Virus record (IMG/VR): IMGVR_UViG_3300020595_000088
Location: 1-36,965 of that record
DNA: 36,965 bases
Direction: 5' to 3' (one strand)
Source of the DNA: a virus
Shown piece by piece: positions 24,025 to 36,712 of the stretch. The notes beneath the pieces were generated by a model. The model worked only from the letters and a program-made list of their open reading frames with translations, ran no database searches and was not told the DNA's origin. The stretch's first letter is position 1, and every line of letters starts with the position of its first letter. The translations under genes were made by a program, and so were the position numbers.

Positions 24025-24459
24025 ATGAGTAAAAACTGGGTCCAAGACATACAGAACATGCACGCGCACTACAAAGTGCACGAAGCAATCAAAAAGAATG
24101 CAGACAAGCCTGAATGGTTAGCAAAGCTCCTTGAGTTCCGCGCTAATTTCCTTCAGGAGGAACTTGATGAACTGAAACAAGCAAACACCGCTGAAGATAT
24201 TACTGATGCACTTATCGACCTTTCGGTCGTTGCTATCGGAACACTTGATCTCTTCGGTGCTGACGCTTACAAGGCATGGGACGAAGTCCTTCGTGCAAAC
24301 ATGGAAAAGGAAGTTGGTGTTAAAGCTAATCGTCCTAATCCATTGGGTCTCCCTGACCTCAATAAACCTGAAGGCTGGCGTGGACCAGAATACCAAACTG
24401 AATGGAACGGTATGTTTGAACAACTTGAACTGCCTCTTAACCTTTACCCATTTGATTAA
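24025..24459 (+). CDS. MazG-like/PRA-PH all-alpha NTP pyrophosphohydrolase
   Basis: A 144-residue protein of the all-alpha NTP pyrophosphatase superfamily. The metal-binding pattern is visible as NFLQEELDELKQA (E-E-x-x-E) and EDITDALIDLSVVAIGTLDL (E-x-x-D-A-x-x-D), followed by the typical VLRANMEKE and a Pro-rich end of the phage phosphoribosyl-ATP-pyrophosphohydrolase-like family. Such enzymes hydrolyse (d)NTPs to monophosphates. Next to dCMP hydroxymethylase and dCMP deaminase genes, a dCTPase-like role (T4 gp56 function) is a plausible inference. Its stop overlaps a microORF start (TAATG). Confidence 0.85.
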   Translation: MSKNWVQDIQNMHAHYKVHEAIKKNADKPEWLAKLLEFRANFLQEELDELKQANTAEDITDALIDLSVVAIGTLDLFGADAYKAWDEVLRANMEKEVGVKANRPNPLGLPDLNKPEGWRGPEYQTEWNGMFEQLELPLNLYPFD

Positions 24460-24551
24460 TGTCTGAAGCAAAACCAACCGCACCAAACAAGCCAGTAACC
24501 GAATACACTAAAGCTGAACTTGCTGAGTTCACACTTATTCAAGCCAACTAA
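24459..24551 (+). CDS. 30-residue microprotein bridging two genes
   Basis: A 30-codon ORF (MSEAKPTAPNKPVTEYTKAE then LAEFTLIQAN) whose ATG overlaps the upstream stop (TAATG) and whose stop overlaps the next ATG in the same way. The seamless chaining on both sides argues that it is translated. It has a Pro/Lys-rich disordered N-terminus and a short amphipathic helix. No homologue is recognised. Confidence 0.6.
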   Translation: MSEAKPTAPNKPVTEYTKAELAEFTLIQAN

Positions 24552-25531
24552 TGAAAGTCAAAGCCACAATTTTTAATTCTATCAAAGACAACACGACAGG
24601 AAATCAAATGTCGTTTGACAACTACGACGAGTTTGAAGAGTGGCTTTACTTTCTAGCCAAGAAGCCTGGATACAAACCAAAAGCAGGGGAAGCAATTACC
24701 TCACGCTGCTCAAAACTAATCAGCCCTGCACAATATCTGCTCGGTGAGAAACGACGTAATGTAAACGTGACTCACTGGGCAGGTTGGTGTGCTTTGGACG
24801 TTGATGCTTATGATGGAACTCCTGACCAAGCAATCCGTCCGATGGCAAAATACCGATTCACGTGTTATAGCACAGCGTCCTCAACGCGCGAGCACCCAAA
24901 GTTCAGAGTTGTGTTTCCACTTACTCACGATGTTCCTGCTGAAAAGATTAAGCACTTTTGGTATGCATTGAACACTGAAATGGGATCGGTTGGTGACAAA
25001 CAGACCAAGGATTTATCTCGTCTTTACTATATCCCAGGGAAATTTCCAGACGCGTGTAATTTCATTTTTAGCAACAACCGTCCTGAGGTTACTGAAAATA
25101 ACAAAACCGCAACGGTCATTCTTAATCCCTTTGATTTGATGCAGAAGCATCCTTATGCTGAAAAGCAGAACAGTGATTTGTTGTCTCACCTCCCACCAGA
25201 GATGAGAGCCGAACTGTTGGAACTTCGCAAAAACCAACTCTCCAATACAGATATCAAATGGTCCTCATATAGAGATTGTCCATTCGTATCTCAGCAAGCG
25301 TTATTGAACTATCAGTCAATTGTCGGGGACGGATGGTACCATGGGTTCTACAAGCTCCTCGTTTCAATTTCATGTTCAGCCACAAAACGCAAATATCCGA
25401 TCTCTGTCAACGAAGTGGTTGCTCTTGCAAAAGAGATCGACATGGATAACGGAAATTGGTATAAGGACCGACCATTTGATCTTGAAGCAAATCGAGCAAT
25501 TGAATTTGCCATCGCAAATACTGAATTTTAA
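24551..25531 (+). CDS. AEP (prim-pol)-like replication protein
   Basis: A 326-residue protein resembling archaeo-eukaryotic primase/primase-polymerase domains of phage and plasmid replication proteins. Motif I is WCALDVDAYDG with the metal-binding D-x-D (about 82-84), motif II is YSTASSTREHPKFRVVFPLT (about 105-125), a variant of the usual 'S-x-H..P.fR.v.PL' block, and motif III is TKDLSRLYYIPGKFPDA (about 152-168). The C-terminal 100 residues (WYHGFYKLLVSISCSATKRK then EVVALAKEID) resemble a PriCT-like helical domain. No helicase domain is fused. Adjacent to gp43, it may supply an alternative priming or translesion activity; such a gene is not part of the classical T4 core. Confidence 0.78.
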   Translation: MKVKATIFNSIKDNTTGNQMSFDNYDEFEEWLYFLAKKPGYKPKAGEAITSRCSKLISPAQYLLGEKRRNVNVTHWAGWCALDVDAYDGTPDQAIRPMAKYRFTCYSTASSTREHPKFRVVFPLTHDVPAEKIKHFWYALNTEMGSVGDKQTKDLSRLYYIPGKFPDACNFIFSNNRPEVTENNKTATVILNPFDLMQKHPYAEKQNSDLLSHLPPEMRAELLELRKNQLSNTDIKWSSYRDCPFVSQQALLNYQSIVGDGWYHGFYKLLVSISCSATKRKYPISVNEVVALAKEIDMDNGNWYKDRPFDLEANRAIEFAIANTEF

Positions 25532-26658: not shown

Positions 26659-27167
26659 GCCACTTCAAAGACATAACTGAGCTAGGTGAGATCGGTGAGG
26701 AACTCGTTTATACTTATATGGTTTCTAGAGGCAACACCGTTGCGTATTCTGAAAATCCATTCGATTCAACCAAAGACTTGATCGTCAACGGTGAGTTTGT
26801 TGAAGTAAAGACACAGTGCCGCAACCGACCACCGCTCAATTGTTTCTCAACCCAGAAGAAACCAACCAACCTACAGAAATGTATGGAAGTAAAGTTTCTT
26901 CTGTTTGTGGAGTTTGACGACTCCGACACTTTAAGAATTTGGACACCTATCGACCGCAATCATTTTACTGACTATCAAGCAAACACAAAAGATGGTCCAA
27001 AGCAAATGCGCGGTTGGTATATTGAACCAAATGAAATCGGCCCAGGATGCAAGTGCGTCGCTGAGTTTAATCTGCCTCAAATGGCAAAGCGCATGAAAGC
27101 GCTATCTCCTTCACAATTCTATGGAAAACATAAAAAAAGTACAACATATTCGACAAGACCTCATTGA
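26655..27167 (+). CDS. PD-(D/E)XK-type nuclease-like protein
   Basis: A 170-residue protein starting at GTG (26655), overlapping the preceding TGA stop. The nuclease core is visible as TELGEIGEELVYTYMVSRGN (conserved Glu in helix 1), then STKDLIVNGEFVEVKTQCRN, a clear D-(X)n-E-V-K motif. The rest includes LLFVEFDDSDTLRIWTPIDR and a basic C-terminus. A Holliday-junction-resolvase or Vsr-like activity is possible but not specific. The next gene (gp42) starts 47 bases inside its 3' end. Confidence 0.75.
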   Translation: MSHFKDITELGEIGEELVYTYMVSRGNTVAYSENPFDSTKDLIVNGEFVEVKTQCRNRPPLNCFSTQKKPTNLQKCMEVKFLLFVEFDDSDTLRIWTPIDRNHFTDYQANTKDGPKQMRGWYIEPNEIGPGCKCVAEFNLPQMAKRMKALSPSQFYGKHKKSTTYSTRPH

Positions 27168-27801
27168 GCTATTTGAGCAAGGTAAGTTCGTAACCGACAA
27201 GACAGGCGTTAAGACAGTAGAACTGATTGGCGCTTCATTTATCGCTGACGAGCCTGGCATAATCCGCGAACCCAACCCGGATTATGTTTCACGCGAGATC
27301 GAGTGGTATAACAGCATGTCTCTCTATGTTGCGGACATCCCAGGTAAGACTCCACCAATTTGGAATGCAGTTGCGTCAGAGCATGGCCGTATCAACTCGA
27401 ACTATGGATATCTGCTCTACAGTCCTGACAACGGTTCACAAATGTCCGAGGTCTGTGCAGAACTTTCTCGCAACGAATTCTCACGACGCGCGGTTGCAAT
27501 TTACCAGCGACCAACAATGCACAACGATTACGCTATCGACGGCATGAGCGACTTCATTTGCACGAACGCTGTTCAGTATGTTATCCGCGATGGCAAAGTC
27601 GACTGCATTGTTCAGATGCGAAGCAACGACGCTGTCTTTGGTTACTGTAATGACAGAGCATGGCAAGAATACGCGCTTAAGCATGTAGTTGAAACTCTTC
27701 ATACTGTCTACTCCAAGAAGTATGAGGTGGGCGACATTCATTGGCAATGCGGCTCACTTCACGTATACGAACGCCACTTCGACCTTCTTACAAATGGGTA
27801 G
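27121..27801 (+). CDS. 42: dCMP hydroxymethylase gp42
   Basis: Thymidylate-synthase-family enzyme converting dCMP to 5-hydroxymethyl-dCMP with methylene-tetrahydrofolate. Similarity to T4 gp42 is very high: VTDKTGVKTVELIGASFIAD, REIEWYNSMSLYVADIPG, INSNYGYLL, SRRAVAIYQRPTMHNDYAID, then GMSDFICTNAVQYVIRD with the catalytic Cys, and RSNDAVFGYCNDRAWQ, in which the Asp that replaces the TS asparagine (dCMP rather than dUMP specificity) is kept. It has 226 residues against 246 in T4; it ends at SLHVYERHFDLLTNG, lacking the last ~20 residues. It predicts hydroxymethylcytosine in the phage genome. Confidence 0.95.
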   Translation: MENIKKVQHIRQDLIELFEQGKFVTDKTGVKTVELIGASFIADEPGIIREPNPDYVSREIEWYNSMSLYVADIPGKTPPIWNAVASEHGRINSNYGYLLYSPDNGSQMSEVCAELSRNEFSRRAVAIYQRPTMHNDYAIDGMSDFICTNAVQYVIRDGKVDCIVQMRSNDAVFGYCNDRAWQEYALKHVVETLHTVYSKKYEVGDIHWQCGSLHVYERHFDLLTNG

Positions 27802-28069
27802 ACCAAAGAAAAAAGATATTCCAAAACCTCAGACGGTCGACGTAGTTTTTCACTGCGTTGGCCACTCTGAGGTATACAATGATACTTACTATCAAGCAAC
27901 GTTCAGTGAGAAGTTTCTACCGTCCAATTATTTTCGCGCGTTCGATTCAGACATGACACCACTTCCAATAATCAAATCGTCGTGGATGTTGAAAGTTAAA
28001 AAGAAGCTTGACTCAAAAGGTTTCACAACTCAAGTAGTAGCAAAAGCACTAACCGATAATAAGAAATGA
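27794..28069 (+). CDS. Small basic protein between gp42 and dCMP deaminase
   Basis: A 91-residue protein, not recognised. It begins GRPKKKDIPKPQ, an AT-hook-like GRP motif in a lysine-rich context, followed by a beta-rich segment (VDVVFHCVGHSEVYNDTYYQ) and a basic C-terminal helix. The start at 27794 overlaps the gp42 stop by eight bases; the in-frame ATG at 27689 is inside gp42 and is not favoured. Its stop overlaps the deaminase start (ATGA). Confidence 0.65.
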   Translation: MGRPKKKDIPKPQTVDVVFHCVGHSEVYNDTYYQATFSEKFLPSNYFRAFDSDMTPLPIIKSSWMLKVKKKLDSKGFTTQVVAKALTDNKK

Positions 28070-28503
28070 ATTTGAAATGGCAAAGACGTTTTATGGAGAT
28101 TGCAGTTTGCACATCTCAATGGTCGAAAGATCCTTCCACAAAGGTTGGTGCAGTTATTGTATCTCCTGATAAGCAAATTCTTTCAACCGGCTACAACGGT
28201 TTCCCTGCTAACATTGAAGACAAACCAGAATGGTATGACGATCGAGAAATGAAGTACTCGTTGATCATCCATGCTGAAATGAACGCAATTCTTAACGCCG
28301 CTAAGAACGGTATTAATATCAAAGACGCGTGGCTTTTTGTCACATCACTTCCTGTCTGCGCCAATTGCGCCAAGCATGTCTGTCAAGCAGGCATCGGTGC
28401 AGTGGTTCGACAGGACAACATAATCGACCCACGTTGGGCAGATTCAAGTAAAGCGGCCGACACAATTTTCGGCCTAGCAAAGATTCCCATATATAAAATA
28501 TGA
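28066..28503 (+). CDS. cd: dCMP deaminase
   Basis: Zinc enzyme converting dCMP to dUMP, feeding thymidylate synthesis. It has 145 residues (T4 Cd: 193). Motifs are KDPSTKVGAVIVSPD, STGYNGFPAN, the zinc/catalytic HAEMNAILNAA (His and Glu near residue 67) and LPVCANCAKHVCQAGI with the P-x-C-x-x-C zinc ligands. It directly follows the gp42 group, competing with gp42 for dCMP. Both ends overlap neighbours as ATGA. Confidence 0.95.
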   Translation: MNLKWQRRFMEIAVCTSQWSKDPSTKVGAVIVSPDKQILSTGYNGFPANIEDKPEWYDDREMKYSLIIHAEMNAILNAAKNGINIKDAWLFVTSLPVCANCAKHVCQAGIGAVVRQDNIIDPRWADSSKAADTIFGLAKIPIYKI

Positions 28504-29717
28504 AAAACAAATATACGCATGCAGCAATCATTCCTCTCATTGGCGGTGAAGCAATCGCTCAGATGAACGTCTTCGGGTCAAAGCTCGACTACATTCTATC
28601 TTACTCAGCCTTTGAGAAAAACGACGGACAGTTCCGCAACTATTTAGAGACTCACGACATTGATGTTCCTTACCACGTTATTGATGCTGAAGGCTACGAA
28701 ATGCCTCATGGCGTTGACGTCGTTTCATCTGTATGTCCATGTGCTGGTCTGTCTCGCTTGAATCCTCATGCTTCCGCTGACGCTGCTGCTAACGATTGGA
28801 TGTATAACTCAACACAATACGTTCTTGAAAATATCAAGCCGCGTGTTCTCTGGGGCGAGAATGCACCAGGCCTTGTTGAGAAGATGGGCAAGCCTGTTCT
28901 TGCAAAGCTTAAAGCAATCGGCGAGCAGTATGGTTATACTCTCACGACCTACCGCACGCGAACACTCCTTCACGGTTACCCTCAGGTCCGCAATCGTTCC
29001 TTCTATATGTTTTGTAAGGACGACAAGTGCCCAATGCTTCCGTTCTTCCAACGCGAGTTGAGCATTACTATTCCTGATCTCATTGCCGAGGTTGATGACC
29101 AAGACCCTGTTTGTGCTACTCGTTCAAAGAAGCCTTCCGATGAATTCTTCTACAGTGCTATCTTGCACATGAAGGGAATGACTCACGCTGAGTATATCGC
29201 CCACATTAATTCTGACAAGAAGAATGTCATGTCCAAAGAGTCTCGTACTGCATTCTTGAAGGAATACAGTTACGCTGATGCTTACGCTCACGTTGAACGC
29301 AATCCTGAGAAGTATGGTGCTTATACCGCAAAGCTTGATCGTATGGTTGCTAAGGAAGCTGACGGTAAGGGCGTGATGTATTCAGGTGTCTTCTTTCCTA
29401 TCGACCACATCGGCGCGTTCATCTCTCGCTACACTTATGGTCTTGCTCATCCAACTGAAGATCGCTTCATCTCCGTTAAGGAATCAATGGCTATCATGGG
29501 AATGCCTGACGACTTTGAGTTGCTTGGTGGTGCAAAGAATATCAACATGATCTGTCAGAATGTTCCTGTTGGTACTGCAAGTGATATTGCCCAAGCAGTT
29601 CTTGATTATCTTGATGGTAAACTTGAAATGTCCGAAACTGACTATCTGCACTGTCACAATGTCAAGAAGCAGTATATGTTTGACAAGCCGGATATTGCAT
29701 TGGTTGAACTTTTTTAG
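28500..29717 (+). CDS. C5-cytosine DNA methyltransferase homologue
   Basis: A 405-residue protein with C5-MTase motifs in order: motif I-like IIPLIGGEAIAQMNVFGSKL, motif IV VVSSVCPCAGLSRLNP with the catalytic Pro-Cys, motif VI LWGENAPGL (ENV variant), motif VIII YPQVRNRSF (Q-x-R-x-R), and near the C-terminus motif IX/X-like MGMPDDFELL and NVPVGTASDIAQAVLDYL. The product would normally be 5-methylcytosine using SAM. Its clustering with dCMP hydroxymethylase is odd because hydroxymethylated cytosines are already substituted at C5, so a different or pre-replicative substrate is possible. It is followed by a TTGACA promoter. Confidence 0.85.
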   Translation: MKNKYTHAAIIPLIGGEAIAQMNVFGSKLDYILSYSAFEKNDGQFRNYLETHDIDVPYHVIDAEGYEMPHGVDVVSSVCPCAGLSRLNPHASADAAANDWMYNSTQYVLENIKPRVLWGENAPGLVEKMGKPVLAKLKAIGEQYGYTLTTYRTRTLLHGYPQVRNRSFYMFCKDDKCPMLPFFQRELSITIPDLIAEVDDQDPVCATRSKKPSDEFFYSAILHMKGMTHAEYIAHINSDKKNVMSKESRTAFLKEYSYADAYAHVERNPEKYGAYTAKLDRMVAKEADGKGVMYSGVFFPIDHIGAFISRYTYGLAHPTEDRFISVKESMAIMGMPDDFELLGGAKNINMICQNVPVGTASDIAQAVLDYLDGKLEMSETDYLHCHNVKKQYMFDKPDIALVELF

Positions 29718-36091: not shown

Positions 36092-36712
36092 ATGAGATCA
36101 CGTAAACCAGAAATACTAATGCTCGATCCGTCTTGGCAGCCATTTGATTGGGCAACCAAAGAGGACACTATCAGACTCTTAATGAAGGGTGCGGTCCGCG
36201 GCATCGACGCAAATATGGTCGAAGCTGAATGGTACCCAAATCCAGATAAGGGTATGTCTGTCTCTTGGGGCGACCAAACCGTCACTCCCTTTGACGATGC
36301 GCCGTCGCTCTCGTCTGGTTCGTTTCATGGTGTCCGCACTTGGAAGCTTCCAACAGTTGTTATCATTCGGCCGCAAGAAAGTCGGATTGACAATCAACGC
36401 GAGAAGATTTCTCCAAACTCGTTGCACGGCATTTACAAGCTTTACGACGGCAAGTGTGTTTTCTGTGACCGCACCATCGGAATGGATGAAGCGTCGAGAG
36501 ATCACTACTTCCCACAAGCAGAGGGTGGACCAAACGAACTCTTCAATATCGTTCTTGCATGTAAGGCATGTAATAACAAGAAAGGAAGTCAATTCCCTTG
36601 GCACAACAAAGACGGTAAAGAGCCAAGAATTCGTGTCCCACTTCGTGGTGGCATCCGTCTTCCTTTCGGGTTAAAACTCCGTGAAGAATGGAAACAATTC
36701 ATGTACCGCTAA
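36092..36712 (+). CDS. HNH endonuclease
   Basis: A 206-residue protein. The N-terminal ILMLDPSWQPFDWATKEDTI followed by RLLMKGAVRGID is the conserved lead-in of a common free-standing HNH family ('vL.L..s.qP.....w..A..ll..GkA'). The HNH core is YDGKCVFCDRTIGMDEASRD, then HYFPQAEGGPNELFNIVLAC and KACNNKKGSQFP, giving two CxxC zinc pairs and the catalytic DH..P..GG..N..N motif. It may be a homing-type nuclease or a phage DNA-processing enzyme. Its stop overlaps the next start (TAATG). Confidence 0.9.
   Translation: MRSRKPEILMLDPSWQPFDWATKEDTIRLLMKGAVRGIDANMVEAEWYPNPDKGMSVSWGDQTVTPFDDAPSLSSGSFHGVRTWKLPTVVIIRPQESRIDNQREKISPNSLHGIYKLYDGKCVFCDRTIGMDEASRDHYFPQAEGGPNELFNIVLACKACNNKKGSQFPWHNKDGKEPRIRVPLRGGIRLPFGLKLREEWKQFMYR

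Follow-up and report, generated by a model that had tools for sequence, protein, structure and literature searches.

The window analyzed here, the whole IMG/VR record IMGVR_UViG_3300020595_000088 (36,965 bases; a fragment of a T4-like phage genome), codes for a gp42-type dCMP hydroxymethylase, a 91-amino-acid (aa) protein, a dCMP deaminase and a 405-aa protein with the fold of the DNA cytosine-C5 methyltransferases (C5-MTases). As read from the DNA, the genes overlap at every joint in this order, and with such stop/start overlaps running from gp42 to the MTase gene they look co-translated. An earlier note on this DNA had recognized the same cluster, which we recover as the overlapping run 27121-29717, and had treated it as a single odd case and a biochemical contradiction. 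The contradiction appears because a normal methylase was assumed, and it dissolves on comparison. The MTase-like protein belongs to a widespread and conserved family that accompanies the genes for 5-hydroxymethylcytosine (hmC or 5hmC) synthesis, and the altered cofactor site of this family suggests that the enzyme probably carries out a chemical step on hmC other than methylation.

The 226-aa gp42 matches the thymidylate-synthase type family PHROG_160 (E=3e-50) and Pfam PF00303 (E=3.5e-15), and shares ~57% identity with proteins annotated as dCMP hydroxymethylase in T4-like phages. Alignment with T4 gp42 equates Cys148 and Asp179 of the latter with Cys147 and Asp178 of the window protein, confirming the catalytic Cys and the dCMP-specificity Asp that had been read from the sequence. 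The rule by which Asn177 or Asp at this site separates thymidylate synthases from dCMP hydroxymethylases is cited in PMC8670742. The conserved residues support the production of hydroxymethyl-dCMP (hm-dCMP) by the window gp42 and, with it, the predicted presence of 5hmC in the phage genome.

The C5-MTase-fold protein passes the Pfam gathering cut-off for PF00145 (E=1e-14; 55 bits against 22). It falls below the cut-off of NCBIfam dcm (TIGR00675; 30.3 bits against 100.65), for which its relatives score 39-53 bits. An AlphaFold2 model built with 50 family sequences (predicted local distance difference test score, 86; predicted template modelling score, 0.86) recovers M.HhaI as the first match in VIA-align (Z 25.4 over 293 residues), and CmoX with Z 22.4. 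CmoX is also the nearest PDB sequence (8YF3; E=1e-6), and among predicted viral folds beyond the core family Bacillus phage G gp301 comes closest (BFVD; E 2.5e-24). The region equivalent to the M.HhaI target-recognition region is modelled as largely helical, with low to moderate confidence. Motif IV takes the form C79-P80-C81 (VCPC) and not the canonical PPC, and its nucleophilic Cys aligns with M.HhaI C81. Thus, the catalytic PC reported earlier is upheld as Cys81 of a CPC motif.

To compare the active site we used one alignment of the family with M.HhaI (sequence identical to 10mh), CmoX and five other phage C5-MTases, and a second to which 95 distinct members were added (94 excluding the remote phage G protein), with the members at <80% identity serving as 52 representatives. 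The cytosine-activating machinery is fully conserved: the equivalents of M.HhaI C81, E119, N120, R163 and R165 are retained in all aligned members, and those of S85 and Q161 are invariant across the representatives. The residues that contact S-adenosylmethionine (SAM) are another matter. F18 is replaced by I/V, G20 by L, E40 by S/T (once by G) and N304 by Q, such that F18, G20, E/D40 and N304 are kept in 0/52 representatives; the Gln at the N304 position is found in 95/95 members, and a P-L-x-G-G signature occupies motif I in all 94 members scoring >300 bits. In contrast, the motif I glycine and an acidic residue in motif II are both present in the seven other aligned C5-MTases, among them CmoX. 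Throughout the family the Q82 position is Ala or Ser and the V121 position is Ala. Hence, the earlier question of whether the C5-MTase motif residues are conserved has a divided answer: the cytosine-activating residues are invariant, and the SAM contacts F18, G20, E40 and N304 are replaced.

These substitutions are not explained by the decay of an unused cofactor site. The 17 former SAM-contact columns, chosen by the established contacts of M.HhaI, have a mean identity of 91%, compared with 63% over the aligned columns as a whole, with none of 20,000 random draws reaching as high a value; the pocket has therefore been remodelled and is under strong selection. Misalignment of motifs I, II and X can likewise be rejected, since MAFFT and HHalign give an identical column pairing, motif X included, and the model has strands 1 and 2 and its first helix at the places expected for motifs I and II. 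The ENAP form of motif VI belonged to the pattern used in the IMG/VR search, so that its conservation is partly built in, though the members reached through gp42 show it too. Taken together, the family lacks the canonical SAM contacts and is most likely SAM-independent.

Among 50,697 phage records, close relatives of the window MTase occur only in Pseudoalteromonas phage XG4 and the cyanophages S-TIM5, S-TIM54, S-TIM61 and S-TIM66. Searched against IMG/VR as a single sequence, the window MTase had no match; a four-sequence profile recovered 280 relatives, from which 80 loci were kept. Relatives also turned up in bacterial metagenome-assembled contigs, most of which carry gp42 and look like phage contigs, and they are therefore no evidence of a cellular family. 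A remote relative, Bacillus phage G gp301, is a borderline member (117 bits to the family hidden Markov model) with CPC and ENAP motifs, a motif I of the form FIFGGS and a Glu retained at position 40. We found the family described nowhere in the literature searched, which did not extend to key older papers in which an earlier mention is possible.

The association of the family with hmC synthesis is strong. Starting from the MTase, we counted 33 family loci having at least 6 kb upstream: all 33 carry gp42, 32 a MazG/PRA-PH protein, 28 a dCMP deaminase and 32 a glycosyltransferase (GT) or sugar-nucleotide gene, so that an MTase homolog beside a dCMP hydroxymethylase is the rule in this family. 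In 35 of 62 distinct loci the neighbor of the MTase is an alpha-glucosyltransferase of the PF11440/PHROG_2888 type, and other loci contain epimerase, UDP-glucose dehydrogenase, UDP-galactopyranose mutase or TAGT genes. The MTase-like gene is hence more constant than any single sugar gene. In a converse count, gp42 loci were picked regardless of the MTase (at least 6 kb downstream; n=47); the family is present in 21, and all C5-MTases found there are family members. Both counts reject chance co-occurrence. The absence of a GT from the window, noted earlier, also stands: PF11440 has no match anywhere in this record, itself a fragment of a genome that may code for a GT elsewhere, and the larger ORFs (open reading frames) without assignment, scanned against Pfam and PHROG, matched no GT family. 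This is a local feature, as most relatives place a GT between the deaminase and the MTase.

Two further protein clusters were observed in these operons. Cluster 16 comprises a 365-aa protein (locus L031:8914-10011) and its relatives, which in 15 loci is found between gp42 and the MTase-like gene where the alpha-glucosyltransferase would otherwise stand; it has no Pfam match and no HHalign link to the alpha-glucosyltransferases, matching only PHROG_14998, of unknown function, and is perhaps a new DNA-hmC glycosyltransferase. Cluster 17 is a ~128-aa protein (L046:6633-7019; 13 loci) that weakly matches uracil-DNA-glycosylase (E=0.002); in hmC operons it has gp42 or the dCMP deaminase on one side and the sugar genes on the other.

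The S-TIM phages code for a ThyA with the specificity Asn changed to Asp ~2 kb from the MTase, and for a PF11440 glucosyltransferase elsewhere. In the thymidylate-synthase tree the S-TIM ThyA groups with the canonical thymidylate synthases (support 99/98), apart from gp42. The pairing of an Asp-type hydroxymethylase with the MTase-like enzyme therefore arose with at least two enzyme lineages, which favors a functional tie over simple co-inheritance. The pairing is also seen in Bacillus phage G, with gp319 and two PF11440 GTs. The Asp-type ThyA proteins of S-TIM54 (L001:9120-9962) and S-TIM5 (L002:8772-9608), which have a canonical thymidylate-synthase background, are probably dCMP hydroxymethylases, and together with the PF11440 glucosyltransferase they predict glycosylated hmC in the DNA of these two phages. 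The unannotated XG4 record has a compact cluster at L003:100-6580 in the order gp42, a small ORF, an NDP-sugar (nucleoside-diphosphate-sugar) nucleotidyltransferase with a kinase-like C-terminus, two GT-like proteins and the MTase. In phage G, the modification genes form a split cluster at 219-235 kb (L086, L097), with the Asp-type thymidylate synthase gp319, dCMP deaminase gp317, thymidylate kinase gp315, the two alpha-glucosyltransferases, a sugar nucleotidyltransferase and the C5-MTase-like gp301. Glycosylated hmC is predicted for this phage as well.

Table 1. The gp42-to-MTase run and the MazG/PRA-PH gene of the window, with key codons of gp42 and the C5-MTase-fold enzyme
Feature	Position	Strand	Evidence
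MazG/PRA-PH-type pyrophosphohydrolase	24025..24459	+	PF01503 E=1e-9, PHROG_671; homologue in 32/33 family loci
gp42-type dCMP hydroxymethylase	27121..27801	+	PHROG_160, PF00303; 57% to annotated gp42s
gp42 catalytic Cys147 codon (T4 Cys148)	27559..27561	+	T4 gp42 alignment; C in 48/48 neighbouring gp42s
gp42 dCMP-specificity Asp178 codon (T4 Asp179, E. coli ThyA Asn177)	27652..27654	+	D in 48/48 neighbouring gp42s
91-aa ORF overlapping gp42 and deaminase genes	27794..28069	+	Sequence reading
dCMP deaminase	28066..28503	+	PF00383 E=1e-21, PHROG_174
C5-MTase-fold enzyme, hmC-operon family, 405 aa	28500..29717	+	PF00145, AlphaFold model, VIA-align, family alignments
Motif I equivalent I11-P-L-I-G-G16 (M.HhaI F18-A-G-L-G-G23)	28530..28547	+	MAFFT and HHalign
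Motif II equivalent Ser34 (ribose-binding Glu40)	28599..28601	+	MAFFT, HHalign, family alignment
Catalytic Cys81	28740..28742	+	C in 95/95 members
Motif VI variant E120-N-A-P123 (canonical ENV)	28857..28868	+	Alignments; also in all gp42-reached members
Motif VIII Q162-x-R164-x-R166	28983..28997	+	Q161/R163/R165 equivalents invariant, 52 representatives
Motif X variant Q353-N-V-P356 (M.HhaI N304-S-V-V; CmoX Arg350)	29556..29567	+	MAFFT, HHalign, family alignment

We consider it moderately probable that the window protein is a C5-MTase-fold enzyme of the hmC pathway, most likely SAM-free, that acts on the 5-hydroxymethyl group, either through nucleophile exchange or with loss of formaldehyde. 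This agrees best with the third of the options raised earlier, namely a repurposed C5-MTase that further alkylates or removes the hydroxymethyl group. In such a pathway gp42 would supply hm-dCMP to the phage DNA, as its conserved residues suggest. The enzyme would flip 5hmC out of the DNA and Cys81 would add to C6, aided by Glu120 and Arg166, a step suggested by the complete cytosine-activating machinery and the known mechanism of the C5-MTases. The Cys-C6 adduct would then activate the 5-hydroxymethyl group, and the remodelled former SAM pocket would permit either its exchange for a nucleophile, yielding a hypermodified base, or the release of formaldehyde, restoring C. In the relatives, the enzyme might work beside the DNA glycosyltransferases or on the sites that those miss. 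We favor nucleophile exchange, with dehydroxymethylation close behind, the sequence alone being compatible with either; that there is a natural SAM-independent enzyme that replaces the hydroxyl of 5hmC with a new group seated in the former cofactor pocket is a proposal we make only tentatively.

Both reactions have in vitro precedents among the C5-MTases: an engineered M.SssI joins thiols such as cysteamine to 5hmC (PMC7176277), and C5-MTases without SAM set free formaldehyde from 5hmC (PMC11347137). M.HhaI, given formaldehyde, can also turn the C of DNA into 5hmC (PMC7176277). Further, the substitutions Q82A and N304A in M.HhaI open a channel to bulkier groups and weaken methylation (PMC10666283), and the family naturally has Ala/Ser at Q82 and Gln at N304. 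As to a possible benefit, the alpha-glucosyltransferase leaves ~25% of 5hmC naked and Brig3 attacks naked 5hmC (PMC13160076). In T4 a beta-glucosyltransferase (beta-GT) lies directly behind gp42, and a T4-type beta-GT was found in 0/8 family records (five IMG/VR contigs, S-TIM54, XG4 and phage G). It is suggestive only, but the enzyme might handle naked hmC where T4 would use its beta-GT.

Several observations weigh against a SAM-free transformation of hmC. The equivalents of G22/G23 and V306 are kept, and SAM might thus be bound in an altered fashion; likewise, Asp62, just after model strand 3, might serve as D60, although both alignments place Pro at that position and the D60 equivalence in the family is uncertain. 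With 26 of the 47 gp42 loci having no MTase-like gene nearby and T4 having no family member at all, hmC DNA in itself does not require the gene. No gene in the operons indicates any particular nucleophile, and exchange of the hydroxyl at every hmC would compete with the glycosyltransferases; the enzyme would therefore have to act at a subset of sites.

The alternative that survives best is a sub-case of the same explanation with a different product, a dedicated dehydroxymethylase that would turn chosen 5hmC sites, for example those missed by the GTs, into plain C and formaldehyde. Being cofactor-free, this reaction would account for both the lost SAM contacts and the retained Cys-C6 machinery; it also has the in vitro precedent of formaldehyde release, and the naked hmC left by the alpha-glucosyltransferase in phages without the T4 beta-GT would provide a substrate. 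The high conservation of the former cofactor pocket, however, suggests a ligand and not an empty site, and restored C would be exposed to ordinary restriction. We regard a dedicated dehydroxymethylase as rather unlikely. Less probable again is a SAM-dependent C5-methyltransferase acting on residual unmodified phage C or on host DNA, the partial substitution and host methylation options of the earlier note. The fold, the catalytic residues and the annotation of the S-TIM54 member as a 'DNA methyase' are in keeping with it. Yet both options presuppose a working SAM-dependent methylase, for which a family devoid of the F18, G20, E40 and N304 equivalents preserved in part by the other C5-MTases is a poor candidate, and they leave the linkage to gp42 unexplained.

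The gp42 linkage would be accommodated by a DNA-level hydroxymethyltransferase that places the carbon of formaldehyde or methylene-tetrahydrofolate onto C escaping dCTP replacement, thereby completing hmC in the manner of the M.HhaI reaction with formaldehyde. MazG/dCTPase-like genes are, however, equally frequent with (10/13) and without (14/20) the enzyme, which lends no support to the idea that it offsets poor dCTP removal or a missing dCTPase, and no folate gene was seen in the conserved clusters that were annotated; we consider this improbable. An idle base-flipping reader, which would target the glycosyltransferases or mask hmC, seems slightly less probable still: the gene does lie directly behind a GT in many loci, but it occurs with unrelated neighbors (the alpha-glucosyltransferase, the cluster 16 protein, or sets of NDP-sugar and GT genes), and the invariance of every cytosine-activating residue would be unusual for an idle protein. 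Least of all do we expect a transferase using a non-methyl SAM analog like the carboxy-SAM of CmoX, the best PDB sequence match and a precedent for phage C5-MTases repurposed in hypermodification (PMC12783734), because CmoX retains Phe25, Glu47 and Asp69 as SAM contacts and needs Arg350 (PMC12783734) where the family has I/V at Phe25, S/T at Glu47 and Gln at Arg350, because the C5 of hmC is already occupied, and because the annotated cluster representatives, in a setting where the window genome is incomplete, gave no CmoA-like Pfam match.

The family shares with the canonical C5-MTases (M.HhaI, the Dcm family, PF00145) the whole fold, the catalytic Cys, the E-N and Q-x-R-x-R motifs and the positions of motifs IX and X; it departs from M.HhaI in the replaced SAM contacts, the small residues at Q82 and V121, the largely helical model of the target-recognition region and the genetic tie to dCMP hydroxymethylase. 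CmoX of Synechococcus phage S-B43, a DNA cytosine C5-carboxymethyltransferase, is likewise a phage C5-MTase homolog repurposed for a non-methyl modification, but it retains the SAM-binding residues, with Arg350 for the carboxylate, and its pathway starts from C and not from hmC. The features that define CmoX, an Arg at the position of M.HhaI Asn304 and SPPC (PMC12783734), are Gln353 and VCPC in the window protein, and membership in the CmoX group is rejected on the Arg as well as the Glu. Phage G gp301 shares CPC and ENAP and a comparable genomic setting, with an Asn-to-Asp thymidylate synthase, dCMP deaminase and two alpha-GTs, and differs in motifs I and II. The T4 gp42/beta-GT/alpha-GT system has gp42 and PF11440 homologs in common with the family loci; it differs in its beta-GT right behind gp42, absent from the eight family records, and in having no C5-MTase-like gene. 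The 5hmC carbamoyltransferase pathway (MetaGPA; PMC8670742) also applies a second enzyme to gp42-derived hmC and was found via association with thymidylate synthase, PRA-PH and dCMP deaminase, but that enzyme is unrelated and uses carbamoyl phosphate and ATP to act on the hydroxyl; the main text of that paper makes no mention of PF00145. Judged by these comparisons, the window protein, with a C5-MTase fold that lacks the SAM-site motifs and the dcm score of the SAM-dependent Dcm group, would best be classed as a novel form tied to hmC biosynthesis.

What emerges is a so far unstudied family of enzymes, represented by at least 280 IMG/VR loci and tied to hmC synthesis in environmental phages as well as in the isolates S-TIM5, XG4 and, more remotely, phage G. 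Should it transform hmC without SAM, this would be a new reaction for a much-studied fold, probably producing a new DNA base, and might offer a cofactor-free tool to label or erase 5hmC. Such a reaction would further illustrate how phages whose sole glucosyltransferase is of the alpha type might handle naked hmC, a target of McrBC and Brig-type glycosylases. If the reaction is nucleophile exchange, the enzyme would be the natural counterpart of the engineered thiol coupling by M.SssI, and cytosine hypermodification would be widespread in environmental phages. Even if SAM is used after all, the family needs re-annotation.

Elsewhere in the window, the product of the MazG/PRA-PH-type gene is a possible dCTPase counterpart of T4 gp56. 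The 91-aa ORF, in its longer reading (27689-28069), has no match in Pfam or PHROG. The gene of a primase-like protein (PHROG_9765) follows those of the DNA polymerase and MazG at 24551-25531. Near the right end, at 36092-36712, a free-standing HNH endonuclease is encoded.

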